Virus record (IMG/VR): IMGVR_UViG_3300046170_000189
Span: 1-23,289 of that record
Reading direction: 5' to 3' (one strand)
From: a virus
Length of the DNA stretch: 23,289 nucleotides
Under the pieces are notes generated by a model. It was not told where the DNA came from. It saw nothing but the letters and a program-made list of their open reading frames with translations, and searched no databases. The stretch's first letter is position 1, and each line of letters opens with the position of its first letter. Below, piece by piece: positions 3,901-20,291 of this stretch. A program made the position numbers and the translations under genes.

Positions 3901-4491
3901 GTGTCCCACTATATGACAGCATTAGCAATGAAGCAACAGGGTTTGAAGCCTGCAACCAAAATTGTGTTGTATTGGCTTGCAGATCATCACAATGGAGAAA
4001 CAGGCGAATGTTTCCCAAGCATAAATCGTTTGGCAGATGTCTGTGAGATGTCGCGCCGTTCTGTTGAGAACCATTTAGAAACATTGGAAACATTGGGTCT
4101 AATACAGCGAGTGAACCAATTTCGTGACCGTGGGGGCAAAACGTCAAATCGGTACGTTTTAGACCTTGTAGGAACATCTGAGAACAATAGTTTGGCGGAC
4201 ACCGATACGCAAAATCTGCGCATGGTATGCGAAAAATCTGCGCATGGGGATACGCAAAATCTGCGCATGAATAACCTTGTAATAAATAACCTTGGAAAAG
4301 AAACCAATAATACATCATCAAAAGATGATGAGGTGAATTATTACTTTGATCAATTATGGGAAATGTACCCCCGCAAGATAGGGAAAGGGCAGGCGAGAAA
4401 AGCATATGTATCAGCTTCTAAGAAGATAGACTTCTTTGATCTATTGCCTAAACTGGAAGCATACGTTTCAACACTAGATGGTAAAGACTAA
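3901..4491 (+). CDS. phage replication initiator, O-like, C-terminus out of frame
   Basis: A 196-residue reading frame starting at GTG 3901, with AAGGAG 9 bases upstream. Residues about 15-90 form a winged helix-turn-helix of the phage replication initiator type (LKPATKIVLYWLADHHN, then FPSINRLADVCEMSRRSVENH and LIQRVNQF). The middle is low-complexity and overlaps the iterons at 4205-4268. The C-terminal part has FDQLWEMYPRKIGKGQARKAY, found near the end of lambda-O-like and DnaA-loader-like phage proteins. The family's closing motif (PH-x-ATWLN-x-x-RW) is present, but one frame over after the stop, so the gene is frameshifted at about 4483-4486. It probably binds the origin and recruits host helicase. 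Confidence 0.8.
   Translation: MSHYMTALAMKQQGLKPATKIVLYWLADHHNGETGECFPSINRLADVCEMSRRSVENHLETLETLGLIQRVNQFRDRGGKTSNRYVLDLVGTSENNSLADTDTQNLRMVCEKSAHGDTQNLRMNNLVINNLGKETNNTSSKDDEVNYYFDQLWEMYPRKIGKGQARKAYVSASKKIDFFDLLPKLEAYVSTLDGKD
4205..4268. repeat. three 19-bp iterons inside the replication gene (candidate origin)
   Basis: ATACGCAAAATCTGCGCAT occurs exactly at 4205-4223 and 4250-4268. Between them, ATGCGAAAAATCTGCGCAT (4227-4245) differs at two positions. The starts are 22 and 23 bp apart, about two helical turns. Each unit is itself a dyad (ATRCGCA, 5-base spacer, TGCGCAT). The repeats encode low-complexity protein in two different frames, so conservation is at DNA level. Repeats of this kind inside the initiator gene are how the lambda origin is built. 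Confidence 0.75.
4271..4330. other. AT-rich segment with direct repeat and hairpin next to iterons
   Basis: Directly after the third iteron the DNA becomes strongly AT-rich. It has a direct repeat ATAACCTTG (4271-4279 and 4286-4294) and a perfect hairpin CATCATC-AAAA-GATGATG (4313-4330). An easily melted segment beside iterons is what an origin unwinding element looks like. Its use as such is inferred. Confidence 0.5.
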
Positions 4492-4552
4492 ACAATACAT
4501 GCCTCACCTAGCTACTTGGCTAAACGGTGAGCGCTGGGCAGATGAGGTATAA
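4484..4552 (+). pseudogene. displaced C-terminus of the replication protein
   Basis: In the +1 frame relative to the replication gene, the DNA reads KTKQYMPHLATWLNGERW and then ADEV before a TAA at 4550-4552. This closely follows the C-terminal signature of O-like phage replication proteins. It has no start codon or ribosome binding site of its own. Removing one A of the AAA at 4483-4485 joins it to the preceding frame. The next gene's ribosome binding site lies at its end, so the undamaged gene would run 3901-4552. Confidence 0.75.
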
Positions 4553-4556
4553 TGCT

Positions 4557-4718
4557 ATGAACTATGATATGAGAGTGCAGCTAATCCGTAATGAGCTAAT
4601 GAACATCCTTGGCACTTACGCTATTCCAAAGCACCTAGAAGATGAGAAACGTGCGCAGGCAGAGGTAGAGGGTATCTGTCGCTTGATTAACCAGAAGTTC
4701 CCTAACGACACGACATGA
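4557..4718 (+). CDS. hypothetical 53-residue protein
   Basis: An unrecognised small protein, MNYDMRVQLIRNELMNILG..., mostly helical and charged. The ATG at 4557 is favoured: GAGG lies 9 bases upstream, overlapping the true end of the replication gene. An ATG at 4542 or GTG at 4527 in the same frame would lie inside that gene. Its stop overlaps the start of the next gene (ATGA at 4715-4718), so it belongs to the replication operon. A helicase-loader or initiator-accessory role is possible from position only. Confidence 0.6.
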   Translation: MNYDMRVQLIRNELMNILGTYAIPKHLEDEKRAQAEVEGICRLINQKFPNDTT

Positions 4719-5095
4719 GGATCACATTCGCGGCACAATGGATCGCTGCAATGCTGAAACTAAAAGAAGCGCACAAGTCTCGCTCTTGGCCCACATCCGC
4801 AGAAATCAGCGCAGCAGTTTCTAAGTCTATGACATCTGCATCCACACGCTCAGTAAGCAGCGGCCCGTGGAAGCCTGACACCTTACAGCTAAATGCCAAA
4901 CGTATCATTGCAGGTGAACCAGTAGGTGAGATGTATATACGCGGTAAGCTGGCAGACAAGATGGTAGAGATGGGACTTATCTCAGACGCACATTTGCAGC
5001 CGTACTTAGAATACTTGTCAGCTAACAACATACCTGCTAGGGTTGACCCACCTACTCTCATAGGTTTGCCTCACTTAAACTGCCCCCTCGCGTGA
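4715..5095 (+). CDS. hypothetical 126-residue protein, last gene of the rightward early unit
   Basis: I do not recognise this protein. It begins with a short amphipathic segment (MRITFAAQWIAAMLKLKEA), has a Ser/Thr-rich centre and a C-terminal part GEMYIRGKLADKMVEMGLI with a helical look, ending in a Pro-rich tail. It starts within the ATGA overlap with the preceding gene and ends exactly where a strong terminator begins, so it is the last gene of the Cro-replication unit. No catalytic motif is visible. Confidence 0.6.
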   Translation: MRITFAAQWIAAMLKLKEAHKSRSWPTSAEISAAVSKSMTSASTRSVSSGPWKPDTLQLNAKRIIAGEPVGEMYIRGKLADKMVEMGLISDAHLQPYLEYLSANNIPARVDPPTLIGLPHLNCPLA

Positions 5096-8333: not shown

Positions 8334-10878
8334 TTTTCTCAGAATGGGCGGTCAAGAGCGCCGCAACATGTTGGATAACTACGTTGATGACTTAAACCTT
8401 GAACGGTTCTTGCCACCTAATTTGCGTCCAGCAGGTCAGTTTGTAAACGAAATGAACCCTGTCAACGCAATGGGCAGCGCAATGCAAGATGCCTCAGTTG
8501 CCTTTGATCCAAATCAAACCAACGCAGCTAGATTAGCGGCAGCGCGTGACATGGGCTTTGAGATGGCAATGACGCTTGCACCTGCTGCACTGGTACGCAT
8601 GGGTTATCTTACGGCGCCAGCGGGTCTGGCAGAAACCTTTGGTATGTCCGTTGACAACGCAGCAGAGAATGCGCGTGGTCTGATTTCGGATGCTACTTAT
8701 GCTGCACGTTCTGTAGCAGAGGGTGATCCGCGTGGGGTAATACAGGCGTTTCAGAGAAGCGGTACACCTCAGTCTGTTAGCGCGGCTAGTATTGGTGACA
8801 ATGGTGGGCCACCCTTAGATGTAGTGCCTGCCCGTGCAGAACTGTTTAGTCCATCTCTACGCGCAGCAGAGAACCTGAAGCAGAACAAAGGCACATACGA
8901 GCAAATGCGCGGCATGTTGTTGAAAGGCGGCGGCAAGGAAGCTGAACTTGAATGGTCTGGGATGGATCGCACCTTTGCAGGTCAAAAGGTTACAAAAGAA
9001 GATTTAATTAGCTATTTGCGTAAGTATGATCCCCGATTAGATCAAGAGACAGTAAGCGCGACTGTAAATCCTAATGCGCCACAAATTCCAGCGGGTGCGG
9101 TAGCGCGGTCAGATTTTGATTTTGACGAATGGTTTGAAAACAACGTCATGGCAGATCAACCATTAATTAGTGAAGAAACTAATTATCTCGTAGATAATCT
9201 ATCGGCAGACTTAACTTATACTAGGGATGATGTTGCCTACGGCCCAGACCTAGATGAAGAACAAGCGCAAGCACTAGCGGATGCGACTGGCGAAGATGTT
9301 GATGATCTGATGAACGCAGAGTACATTATAGAAACTGGCGAGGATAGCGTACTTCTGACAGACGATCCATATGATGCTGTAATGGCGGTATATGGAGAGG
9401 ACGCGATAGAAGAAATGGTGCGTGACGGATTGTACGAAAACTATGAATACAGATATAATTACGAAACGTCAGACTTTGAAAATCAAACGGGCTTGCAGTT
9501 CTATGACGATCCAGAAGACTTTGGAACGCAGGGCGTTATGGAAGAAGGGGACACAAGATACTCAGCCTATATGCCAGCAGGGTTCCGTAGCTACGATGAA
9601 AACTTTTATACCTATTCTGACCCGACTATGCAGTACCACGACGACTACATAGCAGGCGCAAGTCACTTTGGTCAGAATGATGCTCAGACGCAGTACCATA
9701 CCCGCGTTGGTGATTATCAGACTTCAAACACGGTTGGTGGTAGGCCGTTTAATGCACGATATGTGGCAGAGATACAATCAGACGCACAGCAAGCAGCAAG
9801 GTCGCGTGACAAAACTCCAATGACCTATGAGCAAGGTGTGGATTTGACGCGCCAGCGTCAAGCGATATTGCCATTTAAAAACGCAGAACAAATAGCGATT
9901 GAAGAACTAAATGAAGCTAATCGTGATTTTAATCGTTCCATTTCAGAGATACTATTACAAGACATAGAGGGAGATGGTTCTTATTTTGAAATGGCAGCTA
10001 AGGTCAACAAATTGAACAGGGCAATAGGGAGCCATAGACGAAGTGCGCTTGCAAAAGGCCCAAATGGCACAGAGCCGTTTCCTTTGTTTGGCAGCAATGA
10101 CATGCCGCCAATGGATGATTTAGTTATTGATTGGGAAAATGCTACAGACGCAGAGCTTTCACAAATATATCAGGATTATAATCTGTCCGAAGTTCGGGCT
10201 TTTGACGAAGACCGAATGGAAGTCATAAAAGACGAGAAACTGTTTGCAGATTTAAAACTACCAGATGCTGTGAGAGCCAAAGCTATAGACGCTTTAAGTA
10301 ATGTAGAAGCGGCAAAAGTTCGTAAAAAAGAAGCCCAACAAGCAATTTACGACAAAGAGATGGAATTAGAAAGTCAATGGATGCAAAAGCATAACAGCTT
10401 GCCACATCAATTGAACAGAAGTGGCCCAATGATGGCTTCACAAAACCGTTGGGTAGATGACGCAATAAGGCGTAGTATTATTGATGCAGTAAACGATGAA
10501 AACATAGATTTTTTAGCTTTTCCTAAGGATGAGCAAGCCATTGGTAAGGTTGGCGGTACAGACTACCCCAAAGATGGCACAATAGACTTTTACAATCGTG
10601 ATGTTCAAAATAGATTGCGCAACATTGTTCGGAAGATAGACAAGGACGCGCGTATTCAAGAGATTGGCTTGGAAAGTCCGATGCGCCGTGAGGGTGAGTT
10701 CCCTGCGTATGGTTTGCGAATTACACCAGATTTTCGCCGCCGTGTGATAGAGCAAGGACTACCCACATTTGCAGCACTAGGCGCAGTACCGCTAATGGGT
10801 GTAATTGATTACCTCAAAGAACAGAAAGAAAAACGCAATGAACGCTTTGGCGGTCTAATGGGTTACGGAGGCTTGTAA
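8320..10878 (+). CDS. large polyvalent phage protein with EIQSD-type domain
   Basis: An 852-residue intact gene. The N-terminus (1-100) is amphipathic with a hydrophobic stretch (MAMTLAPAALVRMGYL). A segment EQMRGMLLKGGGKEAELEW (194-212) matches a motif found repeatedly in giant phage polyproteins. Residues about 260-420 are highly acidic. EIQSD (484-488), preceded by a variable His/Tyr-rich strand region, and a late helix with IDFLAFP (about 711-735) correspond to the 'EIQSD' domain seen in such proteins. Its biochemical role is, to my knowledge, not established. A protein of this kind may be injected with the DNA. The ATG at 8320 is preferred over TTG 8308. TAATG couples it to the adaptor. 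Confidence 0.7.
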   Translation: MNLIDFLRMGGQERRNMLDNYVDDLNLERFLPPNLRPAGQFVNEMNPVNAMGSAMQDASVAFDPNQTNAARLAAARDMGFEMAMTLAPAALVRMGYLTAPAGLAETFGMSVDNAAENARGLISDATYAARSVAEGDPRGVIQAFQRSGTPQSVSAASIGDNGGPPLDVVPARAELFSPSLRAAENLKQNKGTYEQMRGMLLKGGGKEAELEWSGMDRTFAGQKVTKEDLISYLRKYDPRLDQETVSATVNPNAPQIPAGAVARSDFDFDEWFENNVMADQPLISEETNYLVDNLSADLTYTRDDVAYGPDLDEEQAQALADATGEDVDDLMNAEYIIETGEDSVLLTDDPYDAVMAVYGEDAIEEMVRDGLYENYEYRYNYETSDFENQTGLQFYDDPEDFGTQGVMEEGDTRYSAYMPAGFRSYDENFYTYSDPTMQYHDDYIAGASHFGQNDAQTQYHTRVGDYQTSNTVGGRPFNARYVAEIQSDAQQAARSRDKTPMTYEQGVDLTRQRQAILPFKNAEQIAIEELNEANRDFNRSISEILLQDIEGDGSYFEMAAKVNKLNRAIGSHRRSALAKGPNGTEPFPLFGSNDMPPMDDLVIDWENATDAELSQIYQDYNLSEVRAFDEDRMEVIKDEKLFADLKLPDAVRAKAIDALSNVEAAKVRKKEAQQAIYDKEMELESQWMQKHNSLPHQLNRSGPMMASQNRWVDDAIRRSIIDAVNDENIDFLAFPKDEQAIGKVGGTDYPKDGTIDFYNRDVQNRLRNIVRKIDKDARIQEIGLESPMRREGEFPAYGLRITPDFRRRVIEQGLPTFAALGAVPLMGVIDYLKEQKEKRNERFGGLMGYGGL

Positions 10879-11495
10879 TGGCTATAACAACATACTCAGA
10901 GCTAAAAACATCTATAGCTAACTGGCTAAACAGGGATGATCTAACAGCGGTTATTCCTGATTTCATTAGCTTGGCAGAGGCTGACATGGATCGCAAGATA
11001 CGCCACTGGCGCATGGAAAAGCGATCAACAGCGGTGTTAAATTCACGATATACAGAGCTACCAGAAGGTTTCTTAGAAGCAGTGCGGTTTCATTTAGACG
11101 CAGATGAGCGCCCGATAGAGCTTCTTACACCGTTGGCATTGCAGCAGCGTAGGCGGGGAAATGCTGACGCAGGCGGCAAACCTCAATTTTACTCCATTAT
11201 ATCAAGCCAAATAGAAACTTGGCCTACAGCCGATGGTGAATATACTGGGGAGCTTTATTACTACTCCAGAACATCGCCTTTGCAATCAGATGATGATACA
11301 AACTGGATTTTGAGGTACTTCCCAGATGCTTACTTGTATGGTTCGCTTGTGCATACTGCTCCATACTTAGTGGACGATCAGCGCACAGGAACATGGGCAG
11401 CATTGTATCAAAGCGCAATTGATGGTATAAATGCGAACAACGAGAAAGCTAAATTCGGCGGTTCTGGTCTTAGGCTGCAAGTAAATACCTACTAG
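10878..11495 (+). CDS. phage head-tail adaptor protein (SU10-type)
   Basis: A 205-residue protein. It starts MAITTYSELKTSIANWLNRD and continues with a helix DFISLAEADMDRKIRHWRM, typical of the SU10-like adaptor family that forms a ring between portal and tail. The central part (ELPEGFLEAVRFHLD...) forms strands, and the C-terminus has the long helix of the fold. The gene begins with the TAATG overlap. An adaptor normally implies a portal nearby, but none is seen upstream. Confidence 0.85.
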   Translation: MAITTYSELKTSIANWLNRDDLTAVIPDFISLAEADMDRKIRHWRMEKRSTAVLNSRYTELPEGFLEAVRFHLDADERPIELLTPLALQQRRRGNADAGGKPQFYSIISSQIETWPTADGEYTGELYYYSRTSPLQSDDDTNWILRYFPDAYLYGSLVHTAPYLVDDQRTGTWAALYQSAIDGINANNEKAKFGGSGLRLQVNTY

Positions 11496-11884: not shown

Positions 11885-12337
11885 ATGGTCAAGTTAGCCA
11901 ATCGCGTAAAAGTTGCCACAGGCACACTAGGTAGCGGCACAATCACGCTAGGTGCGGCAGAAGATGGTTTTCAGTCTTTTGCGGATGGTGGCATCGCTGA
12001 CGGTGACTTTGTGCGTTACACGATAGAAGATGGAACCGCTTGGGAAATTGGCAGTGGTCAATATTCCTCAACAGGCCCAACACTCACACGCGATTACATT
12101 GAAAGCAGCGGAGGTGCATTGCTTTCTCTAAGTGGTGAAGCGGTTGTGTTTATTTCAGCGGGTACTGAGGAAGTATACGGATATGTCACAACAACGGTGC
12201 AATCAGACCGCACTTTGGACAGTGGTATTGAGTACGATGTTGGAAGCGGCTTCACGGTGAACAATGGCGTTACGCTAACGATACCAACAGACGCGCAGCT
12301 AACGATCAATGCCTACACAGAGAAAAGGCCGTTTTAG
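11885..12337 (+). CDS. virion protein with fibre-stem-like C-terminus
   Basis: A 150-residue protein. The N-terminal domain [18 protein letters not shown]...[12 protein letters not shown]...[11 protein letters not shown] is a recurrent phage structural module attached to fibre or tail proteins. Residues 100-140 ([16 protein letters not shown], then [15 protein letters not shown]) repeat beta-strands of the sort found in trimeric fibre stems. It probably anchors the first fibre cassette to the virion. The preceding gap is 8 bases with an AGGTG site. Confidence 0.7.
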
Positions 12338-12346
12338 GAGAACAAC

Positions 12347-12817
12347 ATGGCTCTAAGGATTAATTCAACAAACGGTTCAGTAACCATCAGCGCAGTGGAT
12401 GGGGTAGGCAACCAAGACATCACTATTCCACGCTCTAACCTAGTCGGTGAGGATCACAGTGGAGAGTTGATTGTTGATAGCTATAACGAGCGTTTCAACC
12501 TTGTTACCTCTAGCTCCAACGCGATTACGATTGATTGTGAGACAGGCAATCATTTTGCGCATGTATTAACAGAAAACACTACAGCAACATTTGCTAATCC
12601 ACCCGCAAGTGGCGTTGCTTACACAATGTCCATTGAGATCATACAGGATGCAGGTGCAAGTACGTTTACATGGGGCTGGCCTGCCAGTGTAGATTGGAAC
12701 GCGGCAACAGCACCATCCTTATCAACGGCGGCAAATGCCAAGGATATTTTTGTACTGATTACACGCGATGGCGGCACAACGTGGTATGGTTTTGTAGCTG
12801 GTCAAGGAATGGGCTAA
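12347..12817 (+). CDS. fibre-stem protein, cassette 1
   Basis: A 156-residue beta-rich protein, MALRINSTNGSVTISAVDG..., continuing with ITIPRSNLVGEDHSG, a NHFAHVLTENTTATFANPPA strand pair, TFTWGWPASVDWNAATAP and a closing GGTTWYGFVAG. It is clearly paralogous to the 155-residue protein at 15910: same order of TIPRSN/TVPRSN, the NPPASGVAYT versus EPTSGVAYE block, and the shared end GGTTWYG. This module is common in phage tail fibres, upstream of a receptor-binding part. AGGAG lies before its ATG. Confidence 0.8.
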   Translation: MALRINSTNGSVTISAVDGVGNQDITIPRSNLVGEDHSGELIVDSYNERFNLVTSSSNAITIDCETGNHFAHVLTENTTATFANPPASGVAYTMSIEIIQDAGASTFTWGWPASVDWNAATAPSLSTAANAKDIFVLITRDGGTTWYGFVAGQGMG

Positions 12818-14923
12818 ATGGGTAAGAAGCTAACTTCTGCGACTTTAAAAGCTACAGATGGGCCAGATAACGTCATTACTGGCGAACATGAGAAAACTAT
12901 CTATAATTCGTCCACATTAGGTGCAGCTTATGATAGTCGTTTTGGAGAGGCGGGGTATGGTAGGCAGTATGAAGTAAGTTCAAATTATATTGTTTACGGT
13001 CTGCCAAATGCCACCACTTCAAGAAGTGCGGAAGGACTGTCTATTGATGAAATTTCAGGTAAAGGTTGTGTCAAAATTTATAACGGGCGCAGTGGTAATA
13101 TAACTAATGCTAATCCCCCAGAGTTAATAACAACAATCTATCCACCAGAAAGCGCTGCCAATCCGTTTGATAATGGTAATTTTGGTTATGCAGTTGCTAT
13201 CAGCCCAGATCAAACAAAAATAGCTATTTCTGCTTATGTATATGATGATGCTCTGGGAAGTAATAGTGGGCGTGTATATTTGTATTCTACGGGGCCAAAC
13301 CCCGAAGATTGGCAATTGCTACACACTTATACAAACCCTAATTACTATAACACAGGAACGGATGATTATTTTGGCTTTTCGGTTGCTTTAACAGATACAC
13401 ATTTAGGCGTTGGTGCGACAGGCGAAGATACTCCTAGCTACACCATGGTCGGCGCAGTGTATGTTTTTCATACAACAAGTTCAAATCAATACGGGCTAAC
13501 TTTTCAAAAACAAAACGATGGCAACTTAGTAGAAAACAGTGACCGATTTGGTTATAGTATTGCGATGTATGGCGATCTGATCGGGGTGGGTGCGCCTTAT
13601 GAGGATATTTCATCAACAGTAGATGAATATGGTAGAGTATACATTTATAATCATGTGACGAATACACAAGTTTTAAACGCCCAACCTTATGCCGTTTATA
13701 ATAGTAGTTACCGTACTTATGCAGGGTTTAATGTTCGCGCAAACAGCAATTATTTTTATTTCAGTGCGCATTCTGATAACTACAACAATGGTCGGATTTA
13801 CTCTTATTATCATAATGGCAATAGTGCATTAACTATCAATGGTGTTGGTGGTAATTTCGGTTATAGTTTTGATGTTGATTATGATCATTTATTTGTCGGC
13901 TCTTATACCTATGATAGAGTGACTTGTTATGACGCAAGTTCAGGAGGCAATCAGGGTACTTTATATAATCCGAATGTGGATACTCAAAGTAGTAGCGATA
14001 ATTTTGGCACGATAGTAAGGTGCAATAATTCAAGTGGAAATTCATTTTGCACACAAGTGCATATCTCGGCACGATATGAAGATAGTAAGGACAGTGCTGG
14101 AGGACTAACGGGCTACAATTCAGGCACTATCTACATCTTTGATGACGGTAATGGATTTCCATCAAATATGACTAGAATGTATGATTGGCGCGCGCCCGCA
14201 GACGATTTGCATTTTAGCAGGCGTTATGATGAATATTTTGGTCAAGCAATGGCCACCAGTTCTACAAAGTTAGTCGTAGGTTCACCTTTAGAGGATTATA
14301 CTGGGACTACACGGTACGTAAACAGTGGTGGTGCATATGTTTACAGCATAGAAACAGGGAATTTGTTAGCTAGTTTAACGAACCCAAACATTTATGGCAC
14401 ACAAAGTTCAGATTATTTCGGAGCAGCGGTAGCAATTAGTGATGATTACATTGCCGTAAGTGCTCACCTAGAAGATGTTGGCGGTGTGACAAATAGTGGT
14501 GTCGTGTATGTTTACGATGCATCAACGTATCAATTACTCCATCAAATTTACAATCCAAATAATTATAACACGGGAGTTAGCGATTACTTTGGTGGGGCTG
14601 GCAGTTGGGATAATTCTAAAGATAGTATGGCAATATCAGGGGATTATTTAATCGTGGGTGCGCCTTATGAAGATAGTGCTAACAGCAGTACAGGCGCGGC
14701 CTATGTATTTAGTCTGCAAACGGGACAACTGATCAGATCACATACACATTCAACAAACGCAAACGCATATTTTGGTATTAGTGTTTGTGCAAATGACACA
14801 TATTATTATATCGCTTCAAAAAATGGCGACGAGTATTATTCTTCTAATTATGGTGGTGTGACTTGCTACGACTTAGCAACAGGAACAGAGCAGTGGGTAG
14901 CAGGCCAAAACCTCCGAAAGTAG
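12818..14923 (+). CDS. FG-GAP-like beta-propeller receptor-binding protein (first part)
   Basis: A 701-residue frame immediately after the fibre-stem gene (TAA-ATG adjacent). It is made of repeats of about 55-70 residues with a core such as YFG-x-x-VA-x-S-x-D-x-I-x-VGAP-x-ED followed by G-x-VYVY. These are FG-GAP-type blades, with acidic loops that could bind calcium. Eleven repeats lie in this frame and three more in the shifted continuation to 15414, about 14 in all, enough for two seven-bladed propellers. A surface adhesin or receptor-binding role is inferred from position between fibre stem and chaperone. The DNA is visibly more AT-rich and Tyr/Asn/Ser-rich than its neighbours, suggesting recent acquisition. 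The frame ends early through a shift near 14907. Confidence 0.75.
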   Translation: MGKKLTSATLKATDGPDNVITGEHEKTIYNSSTLGAAYDSRFGEAGYGRQYEVSSNYIVYGLPNATTSRSAEGLSIDEISGKGCVKIYNGRSGNITNANPPELITTIYPPESAANPFDNGNFGYAVAISPDQTKIAISAYVYDDALGSNSGRVYLYSTGPNPEDWQLLHTYTNPNYYNTGTDDYFGFSVALTDTHLGVGATGEDTPSYTMVGAVYVFHTTSSNQYGLTFQKQNDGNLVENSDRFGYSIAMYGDLIGVGAPYEDISSTVDEYGRVYIYNHVTNTQVLNAQPYAVYNSSYRTYAGFNVRANSNYFYFSAHSDNYNNGRIYSYYHNGNSALTINGVGGNFGYSFDVDYDHLFVGSYTYDRVTCYDASSGGNQGTLYNPNVDTQSSSDNFGTIVRCNNSSGNSFCTQVHISARYEDSKDSAGGLTGYNSGTIYIFDDGNGFPSNMTRMYDWRAPADDLHFSRRYDEYFGQAMATSSTKLVVGSPLEDYTGTTRYVNSGGAYVYSIETGNLLASLTNPNIYGTQSSDYFGAAVAISDDYIAVSAHLEDVGGVTNSGVVYVYDASTYQLLHQIYNPNNYNTGVSDYFGGAGSWDNSKDSMAISGDYLIVGAPYEDSANSSTGAAYVFSLQTGQLIRSHTHSTNANAYFGISVCANDTYYYIASKNGDEYYSSNYGGVTCYDLATGTEQWVAGQNLRK

Positions 14924-15414
14924 TGATGAGTTTGGTTTTAGTATTGCTTGCACTAATGAAAATTTAGTTGTGGGACATCGCTATTCGGATTTTGCAGGTA
15001 CCAACCAAGGTAAAATTTGGGTTTGGGACGCAGAAACGGGTGTTGCGAGGTTCAATCTAAATAATCCAGAGAATGTGGGATATTCTAGCAGTAGCGATTA
15101 CTTTGGGTGGGCTGTAGACGTAAGCGATCAACACATATTTGTCGGTGCGCCCTATACGGACGTTACATACTCCCATTGATGGATATACTTATAACAGAAG
15201 CGATGTAGGTGTAGTGTATCAATATGATTTGAACGGCACTCTAATCAGAACTTATGACTTGCGCAGTTATCCTTCAATTATTGGACACGCAGGTCAATCT
15301 GCACGTTTTGGTGCTTGCATTAGATCGTTTACGGGTGGGTTTTTCTGTTCTGCGCCGTATCGTGGGGTAAATTACAACAGCAGCGGTCAAGGCTTAGTAT
15401 TTAAGTTCACTTAG
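14904..15414 (+). pseudogene. C-terminal repeats of the beta-propeller protein, frameshifted
   Basis: Two displaced frames continue the propeller repeats. From about 14910 the +1 frame reads SSDEFGFSIACTNENLVVG and then SSSDYFGWAVDVSDQHIFVG, up to a stop at 15179. A second +1 shift around 15172-15174 (CCC) leads to RSDVGVVYQYDLNGTLIRTY and RFGACIRSF, ending with a TAG at 15412-15414 just before the chaperone gene. Neither piece has a proper start signal (a GTG at 14970 lies mid-repeat). Dropping one A at 14907-14910 and one C at 15172-15174 makes one continuous protein of about 864 residues. Confidence 0.75.
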
Positions 15415-15423
15415 GAGAAGAAA

Positions 15424-15900
15424 ATGAGACAATACTTAAAATACGAAAATGGAGAGGTAACATATCCATATTCGCGCAGCCAATTGCAGAGGGACAACCC
15501 TACAGTTAGCTTTCCGAATGTTATGACAGAAGATATTTTGGCAACCTACAATGTTTATCCTTACACTGTAGCTTCAATGCCTGTTTACGATATGGCAACA
15601 CAGGTATGTCAGCAGCAAACGCCAGTTTTACAGTCTGATGGTACATGGGTGCTGAATTGGACTGTCGTAGAAAAAACAGCAGAGCAAATAGCCGAATGGA
15701 ATGCGAATAAAAACCATGAGGTGAGAGGCAGACGCAACTCACTACTTTCAAACAGCGATTGGACACAAGTTGCGGACAGCCCCTTATCTACAGAGGCAAA
15801 AGCGCAATGGGCAACATATCGTCAATCTTTGCGTGATATTTCCTCACACGCGAATTTCCCAAATCTTGCAGACACTGATTGGCCTACAGAACCGTCATAA
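15424..15900 (+). CDS. tail fibre assembly chaperone-like protein, cassette 1
   Basis: A 158-residue protein. The N-terminal half, MRQYLKYENGEVTYPYSRSQ, is specific. The C-terminal half, RRNSLLSNSDWTQVADSPL...AKAQWATYRQSLRDI...FPNL...WPTEPS, is the phage tail-assembly chaperone domain (DUF4376/Phage_TAC type). Such proteins fold or trimerise the fibre encoded next door. AGGAG precedes the ATG and it follows the propeller gene by 9 bases. It shares its C-terminal layout with the protein at 17917. Confidence 0.82.
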   Translation: MRQYLKYENGEVTYPYSRSQLQRDNPTVSFPNVMTEDILATYNVYPYTVASMPVYDMATQVCQQQTPVLQSDGTWVLNWTVVEKTAEQIAEWNANKNHEVRGRRNSLLSNSDWTQVADSPLSTEAKAQWATYRQSLRDISSHANFPNLADTDWPTEPS

Positions 15901-15909
15901 GGAAACAAA

Positions 15910-16377
15910 ATGCCTATAAAAATTGAAACAGCTAACGGTTCCATAGTTTTATCAGGCATTGATGGTTCTGGTGAGGCTTCTGTTACCGTGCCACGCTCAA
16001 ATGTGGTTGGTGAAACGCATACAGGTAACGTGGCTATTACAGGAACCGTAAAAGGTACTTACAACCAGATTTACAACACAATGAGTGGCGCGACAGTCAC
16101 AATGGATTGTAGTTCTGGCAATGTGTTTGCATTGACCACATCGGCGGCAACAAGTGTTGCGTTTAACAACGAGCCAACTTCTGGTGTAGCGTATGAATGC
16201 AAGCTGATATTAACATCAGGCGGCACACATGCTATAACATACCCAGCAAGTGTTCAGTGGCCTAGCGGCACACAACCAACTGACCCCGCATCAGGTCAAA
16301 CAGACATACTTTCTTTTATGACTGTAGACGGTGGGACAACTTGGTATGGGAGACTTTTAGGCGACAACATGTCGTAG
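15910..16377 (+). CDS. fibre-stem protein, cassette 2 (paralogue of 12347)
   Basis: A 155-residue beta-rich protein starting MPIKIETANGSIVLSGIDGS, with SVTVPRSNVVGETHTGNVA, a variable middle, EPTSGVAYECKL, TYPASVQWPSGTQP and GGTTWYGRLLGD. Motif order and spacing repeat those of the protein at 12347, so one arose by duplication or both were recruited from the same fibre-stem family. It opens the second receptor-binding cassette. AAGGAA lies before the ATG. Confidence 0.8.
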   Translation: MPIKIETANGSIVLSGIDGSGEASVTVPRSNVVGETHTGNVAITGTVKGTYNQIYNTMSGATVTMDCSSGNVFALTTSAATSVAFNNEPTSGVAYECKLILTSGGTHAITYPASVQWPSGTQPTDPASGQTDILSFMTVDGGTTWYGRLLGDNMS

Positions 16378-16385
16378 GTGATTAG

Positions 16386-16640
16386 ATGTTAGGTTTCTTT
16401 CCATTAGCCAAAAAGCCGCTGTCAACAACATCGGTAGCAACGGCCACCAACGTCAAATCCTTCTCAGCGCAACAAATCACGCTTGGAACGCCAACTGTTG
16501 ATCCTATCACAGTTGTTCAGACGCAAAACCTAACAGTTTTAGATATTGTTACGCAGCCACCAGTGGTTGCCGATCTTATTACTACGGTAACAAGTAATCT
16601 TGGCCTTAGAGGATATAACATCAACGCCAGTGGTAGATGA
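16386..16640 (+). CDS. tandem-repeat virion protein, N-terminal piece
   Basis: MLGFFPLAKKPLSTTSVATA, followed by repeats of about 22 residues: QQITLGTPTVD and LDIVTQPPVVA. The frame then leaves the repeat pattern at about residue 72 and stops at 16640. The next repeats continue in the +1 frame from about 16600, so this is the first part of one gene running 16386-17016. Proteins with such 'ITxGxPxVD' repeats accompany fibres in many phages. Confidence 0.7.
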   Translation: MLGFFPLAKKPLSTTSVATATNVKSFSAQQITLGTPTVDPITVVQTQNLTVLDIVTQPPVVADLITTVTSNLGLRGYNINASGR

Positions 16641-17016
16641 CCTACCAGTGACGTTTGTAGACGTTCTCAGCGCAGATGAAATTACGGCGGGTGTTCCTGT
16701 TGTAGATACAGTTTCCGAAACAATTATTTCTAACTTTGTTGCTGACGAAATTACAATCGCTGCGCCTACTGTTGACACGATCTCTGTTGATATACAGAAC
16801 TTCAGAGCGTTACCGTCAGATATTACGGCGGGCATCCCTACAGTAGATGCGCCAATATTTGTTCAAATACACAATTTTGCGGCTACAGATGTATTCGCTG
16901 GAACGCCAACAAACGTTGCAAGGTTCACATGGGATTTCCAAGAAATAGAAGCAGAGACATGGACGGATGTTTCTGATATAACTGATACATGGACGCTAGT
17001 TCGCAAGGTAGCGTAA
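16600..17016 (+). CDS. tandem-repeat virion protein, C-terminal piece
   Basis: Continuation, in the +1 frame, of the protein starting at 16386. Repeats are LEDITSTPVVD, ADEITAGVPVVD, ADEITIAAPTVD, PSDITAGIPTVD and ATDVFAGTPTN, followed by a distinct end with ETWTDVSDITDTWTLVRKVA, a closing motif of this family. The TTG at 16600 is not a real start; no ribosome binding site precedes it. Dropping one T of 16600-16601 restores one protein of about 210 residues with seven repeats. Confidence 0.7.
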   Translation: MALEDITSTPVVDDLPVTFVDVLSADEITAGVPVVDTVSETIISNFVADEITIAAPTVDTISVDIQNFRALPSDITAGIPTVDAPIFVQIHNFAATDVFAGTPTNVARFTWDFQEIEAETWTDVSDITDTWTLVRKVA

Positions 17017-17026
17017 GGAGACTTAG

Positions 17027-17137
17027 ATGGCGATAACGATCACAAAGCCAACCGTTGGCGGTTCTGAGGATAGTTGGGGGACAACCATCAATACCGCGTT
17101 AGACGACTATTGTTTTAGAGATAAACAGCAATGCTGA
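17027..17137 (+). CDS. tail fibre N-terminus (piece)
   Basis: The true start of the fibre gene: ATG 17027 with AAGGAG 8 bases before it, reading MAITITKPTVGGSEDSWGTT and then INTALDD, a standard beginning of phage fibres. The frame runs off into nonsense at about residue 28 and stops at 17137. The rest of the fibre continues in the +1 frame from about 17109. Confidence 0.75.
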   Translation: MAITITKPTVGGSEDSWGTTINTALDDYCFRDKQQC

Positions 17138-17915
17138 CGGTACAAACACAGTCACACCTAATCTGGGATCGGGCTGGGAAGTTGGCGGCGTAGCAGTTAC
17201 GTCAACTGCGGCAGAGCTAAACATCCTTGATGGTGTTACAGCAACAGCAGCAGAACTAAATATTTTAGACGGTGACACAGTCGCAATATCTACAACAGTT
17301 GTTGATGCTGACCGCGTTGTTTTTAATGACGCAGGCACAATGAAACAGGTCGCCATGAGCGATTTAAAAACATACATCAACGCCTCTGCGGGGTCTGGGT
17401 CGGTAACAAGCGTTGCTATGACCGTTCCTACTGGCTTGTCAATCAGCGGATCGCCAATCACAACAAGCGGCACTTTGGCTGTCACACTAGCTAGTGGGTA
17501 TACAATTCCACAGACATCGCAAATTCCATCAACTTCCGATATAAGCAACTGGAACACAGCGTATAGTTGGGGCAACCACGCTGCGGCGGGATACGCGACA
17601 GGCACTATTCCAACAAACAACAATCAGCTAGCCAACGGTGCGGGGTACCTTACAAGTGTGCCAAACACACAGGGTGCCGTGGGTGCATACTCTTTTGGTC
17701 GCCCAGCAAACAGAAACACTAGTTATGCCGCAGGGGCCACAAATAGTGCTTTCCACAGCGTTCAAATGAAAGGGCCATCTGGTGTCCCTCGATATACCTC
17801 AACTGGCTTCGAAAATGCTAACTCAACCCTTCAGTCTGGAACTTGGAGAAGTATGAGTGGTGCCATTAGTGATGGCGGTGCGGGTTACTGTGGTATTTGG
17901 GTAAGGATTTCATAA
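17109..17915 (+). CDS. tail fibre, main part
   Basis: An open frame joined to the start at 17027 by removing one T (17113-17116). It reads IVLEINSNADGTNTVTPNLG, two copies of TAAELNILDG (a stem repeat known in phage fibres), MKQVAMSDLKTYI, a GSVTSVAMTVPTGLSISGSP block, WNTAYSWGNHAAAGYAT, and a C-terminal tip with SGTWRSMSGAISD ending CGIWVRIS. The ending is typical of fibre tips that bind host receptors and may vary among related phages. The complete protein would be about 296 residues. Confidence 0.8.
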   Translation: MVLEINSNADGTNTVTPNLGSGWEVGGVAVTSTAAELNILDGVTATAAELNILDGDTVAISTTVVDADRVVFNDAGTMKQVAMSDLKTYINASAGSGSVTSVAMTVPTGLSISGSPITTSGTLAVTLASGYTIPQTSQIPSTSDISNWNTAYSWGNHAAAGYATGTIPTNNNQLANGAGYLTSVPNTQGAVGAYSFGRPANRNTSYAAGATNSAFHSVQMKGPSGVPRYTSTGFENANSTLQSGTWRSMSGAISDGGAGYCGIWVRIS

Positions 17916-17916
17916 A

Positions 17917-18339
17917 ATGGCATCAACAGTAGAAATAACAGAATTTCGTAACGCGCGTTCTATGAACGCTGAGAACACAATTATAGACGTAGAGATCAAC
18001 CATCCAGAATACGGGTGGATACCTTACTTACTAACAGACTTTGATACTGACAATACGATAGACAATGACAGCCTCATGTCTCTTATTGGCACTAATTTCA
18101 CACCATATGTTGCACCGTCACAAGAAGAACTAGATGCAACGACAGCATCTCAAGTGCGCTATGAGAGAAACGAACGCTTAGTATCGGAAGTAGACCCGAT
18201 TGTAACCAATCCACTACGTTGGGCAGACTTAACAGCAGAGAAACAAAATGAGTGGACGCAGTATCGCACTGACTTGCTCAACGTACCGCAGCAAGCAGGC
18301 TTTCCAAACACCATCAACTGGCCCACTAAACCAGAGTAA
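17917..18339 (+). CDS. tail fibre assembly chaperone-like protein, cassette 2
   Basis: A 140-residue protein directly after the fibre gene (one base gap after the stop). The C-terminal half, VRYERNERLVSEVDPIV...RWADLTAEKQNEWTQYRTDLLNVPQQAGFP...WPTKPE, is the phage tail-assembly chaperone domain, better conserved here than in the cassette 1 copy. The N-terminal half differs and probably recognises its own fibre. It likely folds the fibre tip. Confidence 0.83.
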   Translation: MASTVEITEFRNARSMNAENTIIDVEINHPEYGWIPYLLTDFDTDNTIDNDSLMSLIGTNFTPYVAPSQEELDATTASQVRYERNERLVSEVDPIVTNPLRWADLTAEKQNEWTQYRTDLLNVPQQAGFPNTINWPTKPE

Positions 18340-18344
18340 CGCGC

Positions 18345-18488
18345 ATGGCTCTCATACCGCTTAAAATCCCCGCAGGCTTCTACCGCACAGGTACGGAGCT
18401 AGACGCTTCTGGTCGCTGGCGTGATGGCTCACTTGTTCGCTGGCGTGACGGATTCGCTTCGTCCTATCGGCGGCTGGCGTGTGAATGA
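18345..18488 (+). CDS. conserved virion protein, N-terminal piece
   Basis: The start of a large conserved phage virion protein: MALIPLKIPAGFYRTGTELD, then GRWRDGSLVRWRDG. After GGA (18450-18452) the family sequence SLRPIGGWRVNE appears in the +1 frame, and after a second +1 step at AAAA (18488-18491) it continues as TIARITTNAPRSMHTW in the long frame starting at 18485. It therefore belongs to one gene, 18345-20291. Confidence 0.75.
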   Translation: MALIPLKIPAGFYRTGTELDASGRWRDGSLVRWRDGFASSYRRLACE

Positions 18489-20044
18489 AAACTATTGCCA
18501 GAATTACAACAAACGCGCCACGTTCTATGCATACTTGGGAAAGCAACAACGGCACACGCTACGTTGCAGCGGGATCGTACAATGAACTATTCGCAGTTGT
18601 TTCTGGTGGCACAGCATACGACATAAAGCCGACAAACCTAACAGTGGGAGCAGAGGATGCTGCGGTCAACATTGGCTACGGATATGGGTTTTATGGACGC
18701 GGCACTTACGGCACCCCGCGTCCAGACACTGGAAACCTAGTTGAAGCAACCACATGGTCATTGGACAACTGGGGTGAATACCTTGTCGCGTGTTCTACAG
18801 TTGACGGTAAGCTGTACGAGTGGGACTTGCAAACAGTTGCAACAGAGCAAATTACTGATGGTGACTTTTCTGACGCTATTTTTGGCAGTTATAACTTTGT
18901 CAATTGGACGAACACAAACAACGCATTTATTGTAAATTTTGGTGGGTTTCTATCTGGCGGCACAGCACAAAATCCTAGTGACGATCAGATAGCAAGCACC
19001 ACTGGTGTTGTGGGGTCGTTGTCGCAAACGATAACTACCGTTGCAGGCGCAACATACACAATTGAATTTAACCAAGTATCAGTTACTGCGCCAGTAGATG
19101 CTACGCTTACGGTCACTGGAAGCGCCACACTGTTAAGTGAAACCATTACAGATTTTGACGCTGGCGGGTTAGGTACAGTTGTTACATATGAATTTACTGC
19201 CGATAGTTCATCAGCGGTGGTTTCTTTTAATGCGACAAGTACAAGCTCTAGTTTTGATATTAGCCTTGTTTCGGTTGTGCAGACTTCCTTCCCAGCGCAG
19301 CAAATTTCAAATGCACCAATAGATAACCTTGGCCTGATTGTAACAGAAGAGCGCTTCTTGTTCGCGCTTGGCGCGGGCGGCAATCCTCGCAAGGTGCAGT
19401 GGAGTGATCGCGAGGACAACACCACATGGACACCAGCATCCACAAACGAGGCTGGCGATATTGAGTTGCAAAGCTCTGGCGAGATACAGACAGCGATCCG
19501 CACACGCGGTCAGACGCTAATCCTAACAACGACATCGGCACATACGGCGCGATACATCGGCCCGCCCTACGTTTACTCTTTTGAGCGTGTTGGAACGTCA
19601 TGCGGTCTGATTGCCAGAAGCGCTGTGGCAGATGTTGACGCAGGCACATTCTGGATGGGTCAGCGGGGCTTCTTTGGCTTCAACGGTAATACAGTGTCAG
19701 AAATACCGTGTGAGGTTCACGATTATGTGTTTGGCGACATTAACACCTCTCAGGTCAGTAAGACATGGGCATTGGCAAACGGTCAGTTTGGCGAAATCTG
19801 GTGGTTCTATTGTTCTTCAGGCTCTAACGAGATTGATCGCTATGTGGCGTATGACTACAAGGAAGGCCACTGGCTAATCGGTGATCTATCCCGCACATGT
19901 GGCGTTGAGCGCAACGTGTTTACCTATCCTATGCTGTCAGATGCAAGCGCGGTCATCTATGACCATGAGCGCGGCTTGGCGCACAGCGGTGGATCAGTCT
20001 GTATTCGCAGAAAGCGGCCCGATCAGCATTGGCAACGGCGATAA
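18485..20044 (+). CDS. conserved virion/tail protein, main part
   Basis: A 519-residue frame. It contains SMHTWESNNGTRYVAAGSY, GYGYGFYGRGTYGTPRP, ATTWSLDNWGEYLVAC, a carbohydrate-binding-like beta insert (about residues 120-260, starting ITDGDFSDAIFGSYNFVNWT), then RFLFALGAGGNPRKVQWSDR, GYRT-type strands and EIWWFYCSSGSNEIDRYVAY. The scaffold is a beta-rich phage virion protein widespread after fibre genes, probably tail-associated. The insert interrupts the family scaffold and could be a glycan-binding domain. The ATG at 18485 is internal. Residues after about 506 are out of frame. Confidence 0.72.
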   Translation: MKTIARITTNAPRSMHTWESNNGTRYVAAGSYNELFAVVSGGTAYDIKPTNLTVGAEDAAVNIGYGYGFYGRGTYGTPRPDTGNLVEATTWSLDNWGEYLVACSTVDGKLYEWDLQTVATEQITDGDFSDAIFGSYNFVNWTNTNNAFIVNFGGFLSGGTAQNPSDDQIASTTGVVGSLSQTITTVAGATYTIEFNQVSVTAPVDATLTVTGSATLLSETITDFDAGGLGTVVTYEFTADSSSAVVSFNATSTSSSFDISLVSVVQTSFPAQQISNAPIDNLGLIVTEERFLFALGAGGNPRKVQWSDREDNTTWTPASTNEAGDIELQSSGEIQTAIRTRGQTLILTTTSAHTARYIGPPYVYSFERVGTSCGLIARSAVADVDAGTFWMGQRGFFGFNGNTVSEIPCEVHDYVFGDINTSQVSKTWALANGQFGEIWWFYCSSGSNEIDRYVAYDYKEGHWLIGDLSRTCGVERNVFTYPMLSDASAVIYDHERGLAHSGGSVCIRRKRPDQHWQRR

Positions 20045-20291
20045 CATCATGCAAGTCACAGACTCTGATCCCTGATGAAAAAACGCAGGGCGATGTAGAT
20101 GTGACATTTAAGAGCAGCTACTATCCAAACGACACAGAATACACGCATGGGCCTTACACACCGTCTAGCCCGACATGCCGTGCGCTTCTCAGGTCGCCAG
20201 ATCAGAATGCGCGTAGAGGGTCGATACACCTTACGCAGCGTGGCGTGTTGGCACAATGCGGGTAGATGCAAAAGCGGGTGGGCGTAGGTAA
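20007..20291 (+). pseudogene. C-terminus of the conserved virion protein, multiply frameshifted
   Basis: Successive +1 steps are needed to follow the family sequence. Frame 0 carries FAESGPISIGNGDNIMQVTD; frame 1 from about 20065 carries LIPDEKTQGDVDVTFKS; frame 2 from about 20178 carries VRFSGRQIRMRVEG; frame 0 from about 20221 carries DTPYAAWRVGTMRVDAKAGG and then RR with a TAA at 20289-20291. That stop forms a TAATG overlap with the next gene, which confirms the reconstructed end. Confidence 0.7.

Follow-up and report, generated by a model that had tools for sequence, protein, structure and literature searches.

A predicted double seven-bladed FG-GAP propeller as the probable exchangeable head of a tail fibre in an uncultured short-tailed virus

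To our knowledge, beta-propellers have rarely been described in the receptor-binding proteins of phages. A case in point is Gp45 of Staphylococcus phage phi11, a receptor-binding protein with a propeller in which an N-terminal strand closes the ring (PMC4901313). Among the comparisons drawn in the same account are the seven-bladed propeller of PhiKZ gp131C, located at the baseplate periphery and suspected to be a receptor binder, and PRD1 P2, which is discussed beside Gp45 among propellers in a receptor-binding role (PMC4901313). The protein analysed here resembles Gp45 in that a propeller domain appears to be part of a tail receptor-binding protein and to be closed by an N-terminal strand, but Gp45 has five blades and one ring per chain, forms a trimer, carries helical stem and tower domains and does not belong to the FG-GAP class (PMC4901313). 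The likeness to gp131C is one of description, as given in that comparison, and there the differences are a single ring and a function designated as putative (PMC4901313).

The FG-GAP family as such is not new in viruses, given that BFVD and phage records contain FG-GAP proteins annotated in cyanophages, where they are designated virion structural proteins, and in giant viruses. One of these, the 'virion structural protein and packaging' of S-TIM5 (F417_gp054), which came up in a tblastn search (31%) as well as in a fold search, likewise combines PF14312 repeats, about seven of them, with a virion annotation; it is, however, a single ring from a different phage lineage, with no adjoining stub or chaperone gene, whereas the present protein appears to consist of two rings. 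In the open-access literature, we found no description of an FG-GAP propeller as part of a phage tail fibre.

So how does the present locus compare? The window, that is, the entire stretch of DNA analysed here, is a 23,289-base IMG/VR virus fragment, and the features that matter in it are the following.

10878..11495, + strand: tail tubular protein A-like gene (phrog_2941, 5.9e-50), which bounds the cassette region
11885..12337, + strand: anchor protein, 150 aa (blastp matches to proteins of 289-1273 aa)
12347..12817, + strand: fibre stub, 156 aa, directly upstream of the FG-GAP gene (tail fiber matches phrog_7760, 4.5e-17, and phrog_9017, 1.6e-16)
12818..12886, + strand: N-terminal 23 residues, MGKKLTSATLKATDGPDNVITGE, a probable docking peptide and presumably a divergent MATKKKLLQ-type tag
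12818..14923, + strand: uninterrupted part of the FG-GAP gene, 701 aa, covering blades 1-11 (PF14312, E 2.1e-37)
12887..14158, + strand: predicted first propeller, made up of blades 1-7; the outer strand that would close it lies near the N-terminal end (blade HMM residues 44-460)
14159..15411, + strand: predicted second propeller, blades 8-14 in three frames, with two breaks; read through in the relatives L003, L008 and L009
about 14913-15074, + strand: blade 12 (blade HMM, shifted frame)
about 15084-15255, + strand: blade 13, split by the second frame break
about 15295-15411, + strand: blade 14 (blade HMM, shifted frame)
15424..15900, + strand: tail-fibre assembly chaperone, 158 aa (PF16778 Phage_tail_APC, 2.1e-20; phrog_4912 tail fiber assembly, 2.4e-16)
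15910..18339, + strand: second fibre cassette, comprising a paralogue of the stub (15910-16377), fibre genes and a chaperone-like gene (17917-18339)
16386-17013 (broken) and about 17027-17915, + strand: fibre genes of the second cassette, the latter of S74-chaperone type in relatives
18345..20218, + strand: virion structural protein, which bounds the fibre region (phrog_3287, 2e-67); frame-broken here, 874 aa and intact in L003 and L008

The location of the FG-GAP gene in a phage fibre region, as previously proposed, is supported by this neighbourhood: the stub lies upstream, the PF16778 gene downstream, and the tail tubular A-like and nozzle-like genes lie around them. The tail tubular A-like protein shows 47.6% to the 'tail tubular protein' of Octadecabacter Antarctic DB virus 2, and the product of 18345-20218, which is homologous to chain Y of PDB 9nwi (six chains; E 9.1e-12), is probably the nozzle. 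In relatives, long tail fibres or spikes have an anchor homologue as their N-terminal part, and the two tested (L036 and L044) end with Peptidase_S74 and have tail spike/fiber PHROG matches. The stub, which is a paralogue of 15910-16377, has a C-terminal domain common to many tail fibres, and its homologues sit before a variable head gene in more than 100 loci. The heads of the second cassette begin, in relatives, with other tags (MLGFFPLA, MSMTARRMQMAA). The terminase is closest to those of Methylophilales and Pelagibacter phages, all below 60%.

The preliminary description counted about 14 FG-GAP-like repeats across two frame breaks, and this count is borne out by profile searches. The 701-aa open reading frame scores 127.5 bits against PF14312 (FG-GAP_2), well past the Pfam gathering cut-off of 23, with six stretches that are each above the threshold alone; the out-of-frame piece at 14922-15176 matches the same Pfam family (E 3.1e-13), and relatives score 178-462 bits. 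A blade HMM made from the relative L008 recognizes 11 blades in the 701-aa frame and three more in two shifted frames, so that the count of 14 stands, and the intact homologues L008 (866 aa) and L009 (865 aa), which are 65-67% identical, have exactly 14 repeats each. When blades are compared with one another, the mean local score is 43, versus 24 (s.d. 5) for the shuffled sequence, and 46% of the blade pairs lie beyond the 99th percentile of the shuffled ones. With regard to the motif initially reported, the repeats stand, the GAP half is often degenerate, and the family is FG-GAP_2; the integrin model PF01839 gives E 0.12 on the window protein, under the Pfam cut-off. Sequence searches with the window protein and with L099 matched no solved structure.

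How, then, are the 14 repeats arranged? That the FG-GAP protein consists of two seven-bladed propellers on a tail fibre, as had been suggested, appears to be well supported by the repeat count, the gap between blades 7 and 8, the strands predicted in a relative, the single-ring relatives and the cassette context. Exactly 14 blades are found in three lineages (L008/L009, L074 and L097-L099), and single 7-blade versions are present in the equivalent slot in L079-L083 and L107. The longest inter-blade spacing is the one between blades 7 and 8 in L008 (78-79 residues), L003 and L099, and it is tied for the longest in L074; with a second blade profile, the differences at this gap are smaller for L099 and L074. 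In the 7-blade proteins, the part of the blade profile that stands for the outer strand (columns 48-58) finds its match in the N-terminal stretch and is missing from the final repeat, which ends at about column 40. The combination of a short last repeat with an N-terminal outer strand is the usual closing pattern of propellers. The C-terminal repeat of the 14-blade proteins is shortened like that of the single-ring ones, and blade 7 of L099 also stops short in the blade profile. In the arrangement that we propose, the N-terminal strand would close blade 7, and the strand that follows blade 7 would close blade 14.

The structural work was based on natural intact relatives, the window gene being left unrepaired. 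The AlphaFold2 model of L099, a 14-repeat relative (mean pLDDT 77, pTM 0.52), contains 56 strands: a single one at the N-terminal end, then 13 x 4, and three in the last blade (14 sets). The linker behind blade 7 is of low confidence in this model. Confidence is lower, and no more than moderate, for the model of the close relative L008 (pLDDT 66, pTM 0.49). In Foldseek searches, these two models, whose moderate confidence has to be kept in mind, match SSU processome proteins from end to end with a TM of about 0.4; we take these targets to be tandem (WD40 double) propellers. Integrin alpha propellers were a further match to the L099 model, with a TMt of about 0.6 across some 480 columns. The similarity to the integrin alpha chain thus lies in the seven-bladed FG-GAP-type ring, but the latter is a single ring in a eukaryotic adhesion receptor, and a motif search found no DxDxDG calcium loop in the window protein; integrin mimicry via such loops was accordingly dropped from consideration.

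The tendency to occur in sevens extends beyond the relatives of the window. The preliminary description deemed a propeller of this size in such a position unusual, which holds only in part because one-, two- and three-ring viral FG-GAP proteins are scattered through IMG/VR: seven repeats in L182, L183, L188 (twice), L189 and L196, 7+7 in L177 and L187, and 7+7+7 in a 1308-aa protein (L176, 4866-8789) with linkers located exactly after blades 7 and 14. The exceptions in this census are L190 (six), L191 and L192 (five each) and L179 (6+7, with a linker between the two blocks); as highly repetitive genes may collapse in assembly, they do not settle the matter in either direction. A very large hypothetical protein of Sinorhizobium phage Phosso (L005, 57900-68978) has about 28 weak FG-GAP-like repeats. 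In L099 (1299-3734), the blades are about 77-82% identical to each other and still total 14; this near-identity suggests recent blade amplification. We also considered similarity between blades seven positions apart as a sign of duplication of a whole ring and set it aside, as the excess is slight in L099 (82% versus about 77% at offsets 1-6), weak in L008 (28% versus 23-26%) and absent in L074.

The gene is indeed AT-rich relative to its flanks (40.3% GC versus 47.3% in the rest of the window), as noted earlier, but the recent acquisition that was read from this feature is unsupported. The low GC owes much to the composition of the protein, about a quarter of which is Tyr, Asn and Asp. At fourfold-degenerate sites, the GC fraction of the gene (0.324) falls within the range of its neighbours (0.27-0.42; terminase 0.47), so that base composition is no argument for a recent arrival and the idea was dropped; furthermore, an FG-GAP gene is found at the matching position in several related contigs.

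A scan with two close FG-GAP sequences yielded only four loci. The comparative set was drawn instead via the neighbour genes, with 80 contigs retrieved of the 330 viral contigs found for the tail tubular gene, and 80 of the 536 found for a stub relative. In the loci read, the gene that follows the stub varies widely, including FG-GAP proteins of 14 and of seven blades, SBBP (PF06739) propellers, Lactonase-type propellers, LamG + DUF7483 proteins, a glycine-rich protein and some without a family; in other words, exchange for unrelated heads after homologous stubs is seen among the relatives. The SBBP heads (L042, L060 and L054) are comparable to the window protein in their equivalent stub and chaperone neighbours and in having about seven repeats, but they represent another propeller family, form a single ring, start with a MATKKKLL tag and end in a low-complexity tail. 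Compared with L013, the window has 67% identity in the head, 97% in the stub and 82% in the chaperone. We also considered diversity-generating template repeats and dropped the idea, there being no direct repeats of at least 28 bases within the window.

What connects such different heads to the stub? A possible answer is suggested by their N-termini, of which 43 of the 76 distinct ones that follow stub homologues start with M(A/S)TKKK(L/M)(L/F) or nearly so, many of the others resembling looser versions. The MATKKKLLQ-type tag is present on 7-blade FG-GAP, 14-blade FG-GAP (L099), SBBP and LamG heads; apart from the tag, no sequence family unites them. Peptides of the MATKKKLLQAAAG type occur at L099:1299-1340, L042:2040-2080, L079:10950-10990 and in many other loci, as well as at 12818-12886 of the window, and look like a general docking tag. 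The N-terminus of the window protein, MGKKLTSATLKA, resembles the MATKKKLLQ tag only loosely but may be its equivalent; the first 23 residues of the protein are 100% identical between the window and L008, the blades being 55-84% identical. The natural reading, as far as the sequences go, is that this peptide docks the head onto the stub. Since the presumed docking peptide, the stub and the chaperone persist through replacement of the head, the locus would serve as an exchange slot for heads.

We consider it likely that the gene encodes the distal, host-recognizing head of a tail fibre, made of two seven-bladed FG-GAP_2 rings, in a short-tailed virus of bacteria. Under this hypothesis, the protein of about 865 residues would consist of a short N-terminal docking peptide followed by two consecutive seven-bladed FG-GAP_2 propellers; the peptide would attach the head to the tip of the stub encoded just upstream, the Phage_tail_APC protein encoded downstream would assist the assembly of the head, and the loops of both rings would bind a ligand on the cell surface, with a glycan or a surface protein as the probable candidates. 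Because the head is a replaceable part of a fibre cassette, alternates with lectin-like folds and is more diverged than its neighbours, a host-recognition module is the simplest interpretation. Of the receptor-binding function initially attributed to the protein, the cassette position and the exchange of heads have found support; binding itself, although the most likely role, is inferred from this context.

Several other scenarios have to be weighed against this one. The two breaks in the reading frame, one near 14.90 kb and the other near 15.16 kb, are present as first reported and would be compatible with a decaying pseudogene, the breaks being real mutations in the window virus. This is very unlikely, considering that L003, which is 87% identical in DNA to window positions 13142-17103, reads through both breaks in a single open frame of 757 aa that is ended by the contig end, that L008 and L009 have the full-length gene, and that at least five other genes of the window, including the nozzle-like gene, are frame-broken yet whole in relatives. 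Sequencing or assembly error across the contig fits better with this distribution of breaks and appears to be the simplest reading. Breaks outside the FG-GAP gene are located at about 4484-4750, 7326, 16600, 17107 and 18451-18490. Another scenario concerns the architecture: the repeats of L074 and L099 are continuous, with little linker, which would suit one large 14-bladed ring or an open solenoid. We know of no natural 14-bladed ring, and the 7-blade relatives, the 7+7+7 arrangement with linkers at multiples of seven, the distinctive gap between blades 7 and 8 and the presumably double-propeller nature of the full-length Foldseek partners make this architecture extremely improbable.

With respect to function, a double propeller could be an enzymatic head, a polysaccharide depolymerase or glycosidase with the active site between the rings as in GH74 xyloglucanases. 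Indeed, GH74 double propellers are among the Foldseek matches of the L008 model, and a tailspike enzyme with a beta-propeller, the K1F endosialidase, figures among the examples given in one account (PMC12632334). The GH74 TM-scores are low (0.24-0.27), however, and unrelated double propellers reach them too; by sequence, no glycosidase family in Pfam was matched, cleft-free single-ring versions occupy the equivalent slot, and the nearly identical blades of L099 leave little room for a special active site. An enzyme thus seems unlikely, and we are slightly more sceptical of a purely structural or decorating protein of the virion (an adaptor, whisker or baseplate-like platform) that would lack a receptor role, after the manner of nozzle propeller domains. 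The precedent here is the seven-bladed propeller of the SU10 nozzle protein (PMC9509320), and the annotations of FG-GAP proteins in cyanophages describe them as structural or baseplate components. Against this stand the separate nozzle-like gene of the window, the position of the FG-GAP gene between a fibre stub and an assembly chaperone, and the replacement of the head in relatives by unrelated folds, some of them lectin-like.

If the host-recognition reading is correct, a further scenario presents itself, on which we are evenly divided: one stub and a short docking peptide may serve several unrelated plug-in heads, and doubling of the ring may alter valency or specificity. The users of such a system would be a family of uncultured short-tailed viruses, whose heads include LamG-type lectins, and the doubling would be from 7 to 14 blades, with 21 blades seen elsewhere. 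FG-GAP propellers come as one, two or three whole rings of seven and alternate with other propeller and lectin folds in one slot. They make up a natural series for studying how phages may change host when entire heads are swapped and the docking peptide is conserved; the same series poses the question why the repeat number tends to change by sevens.
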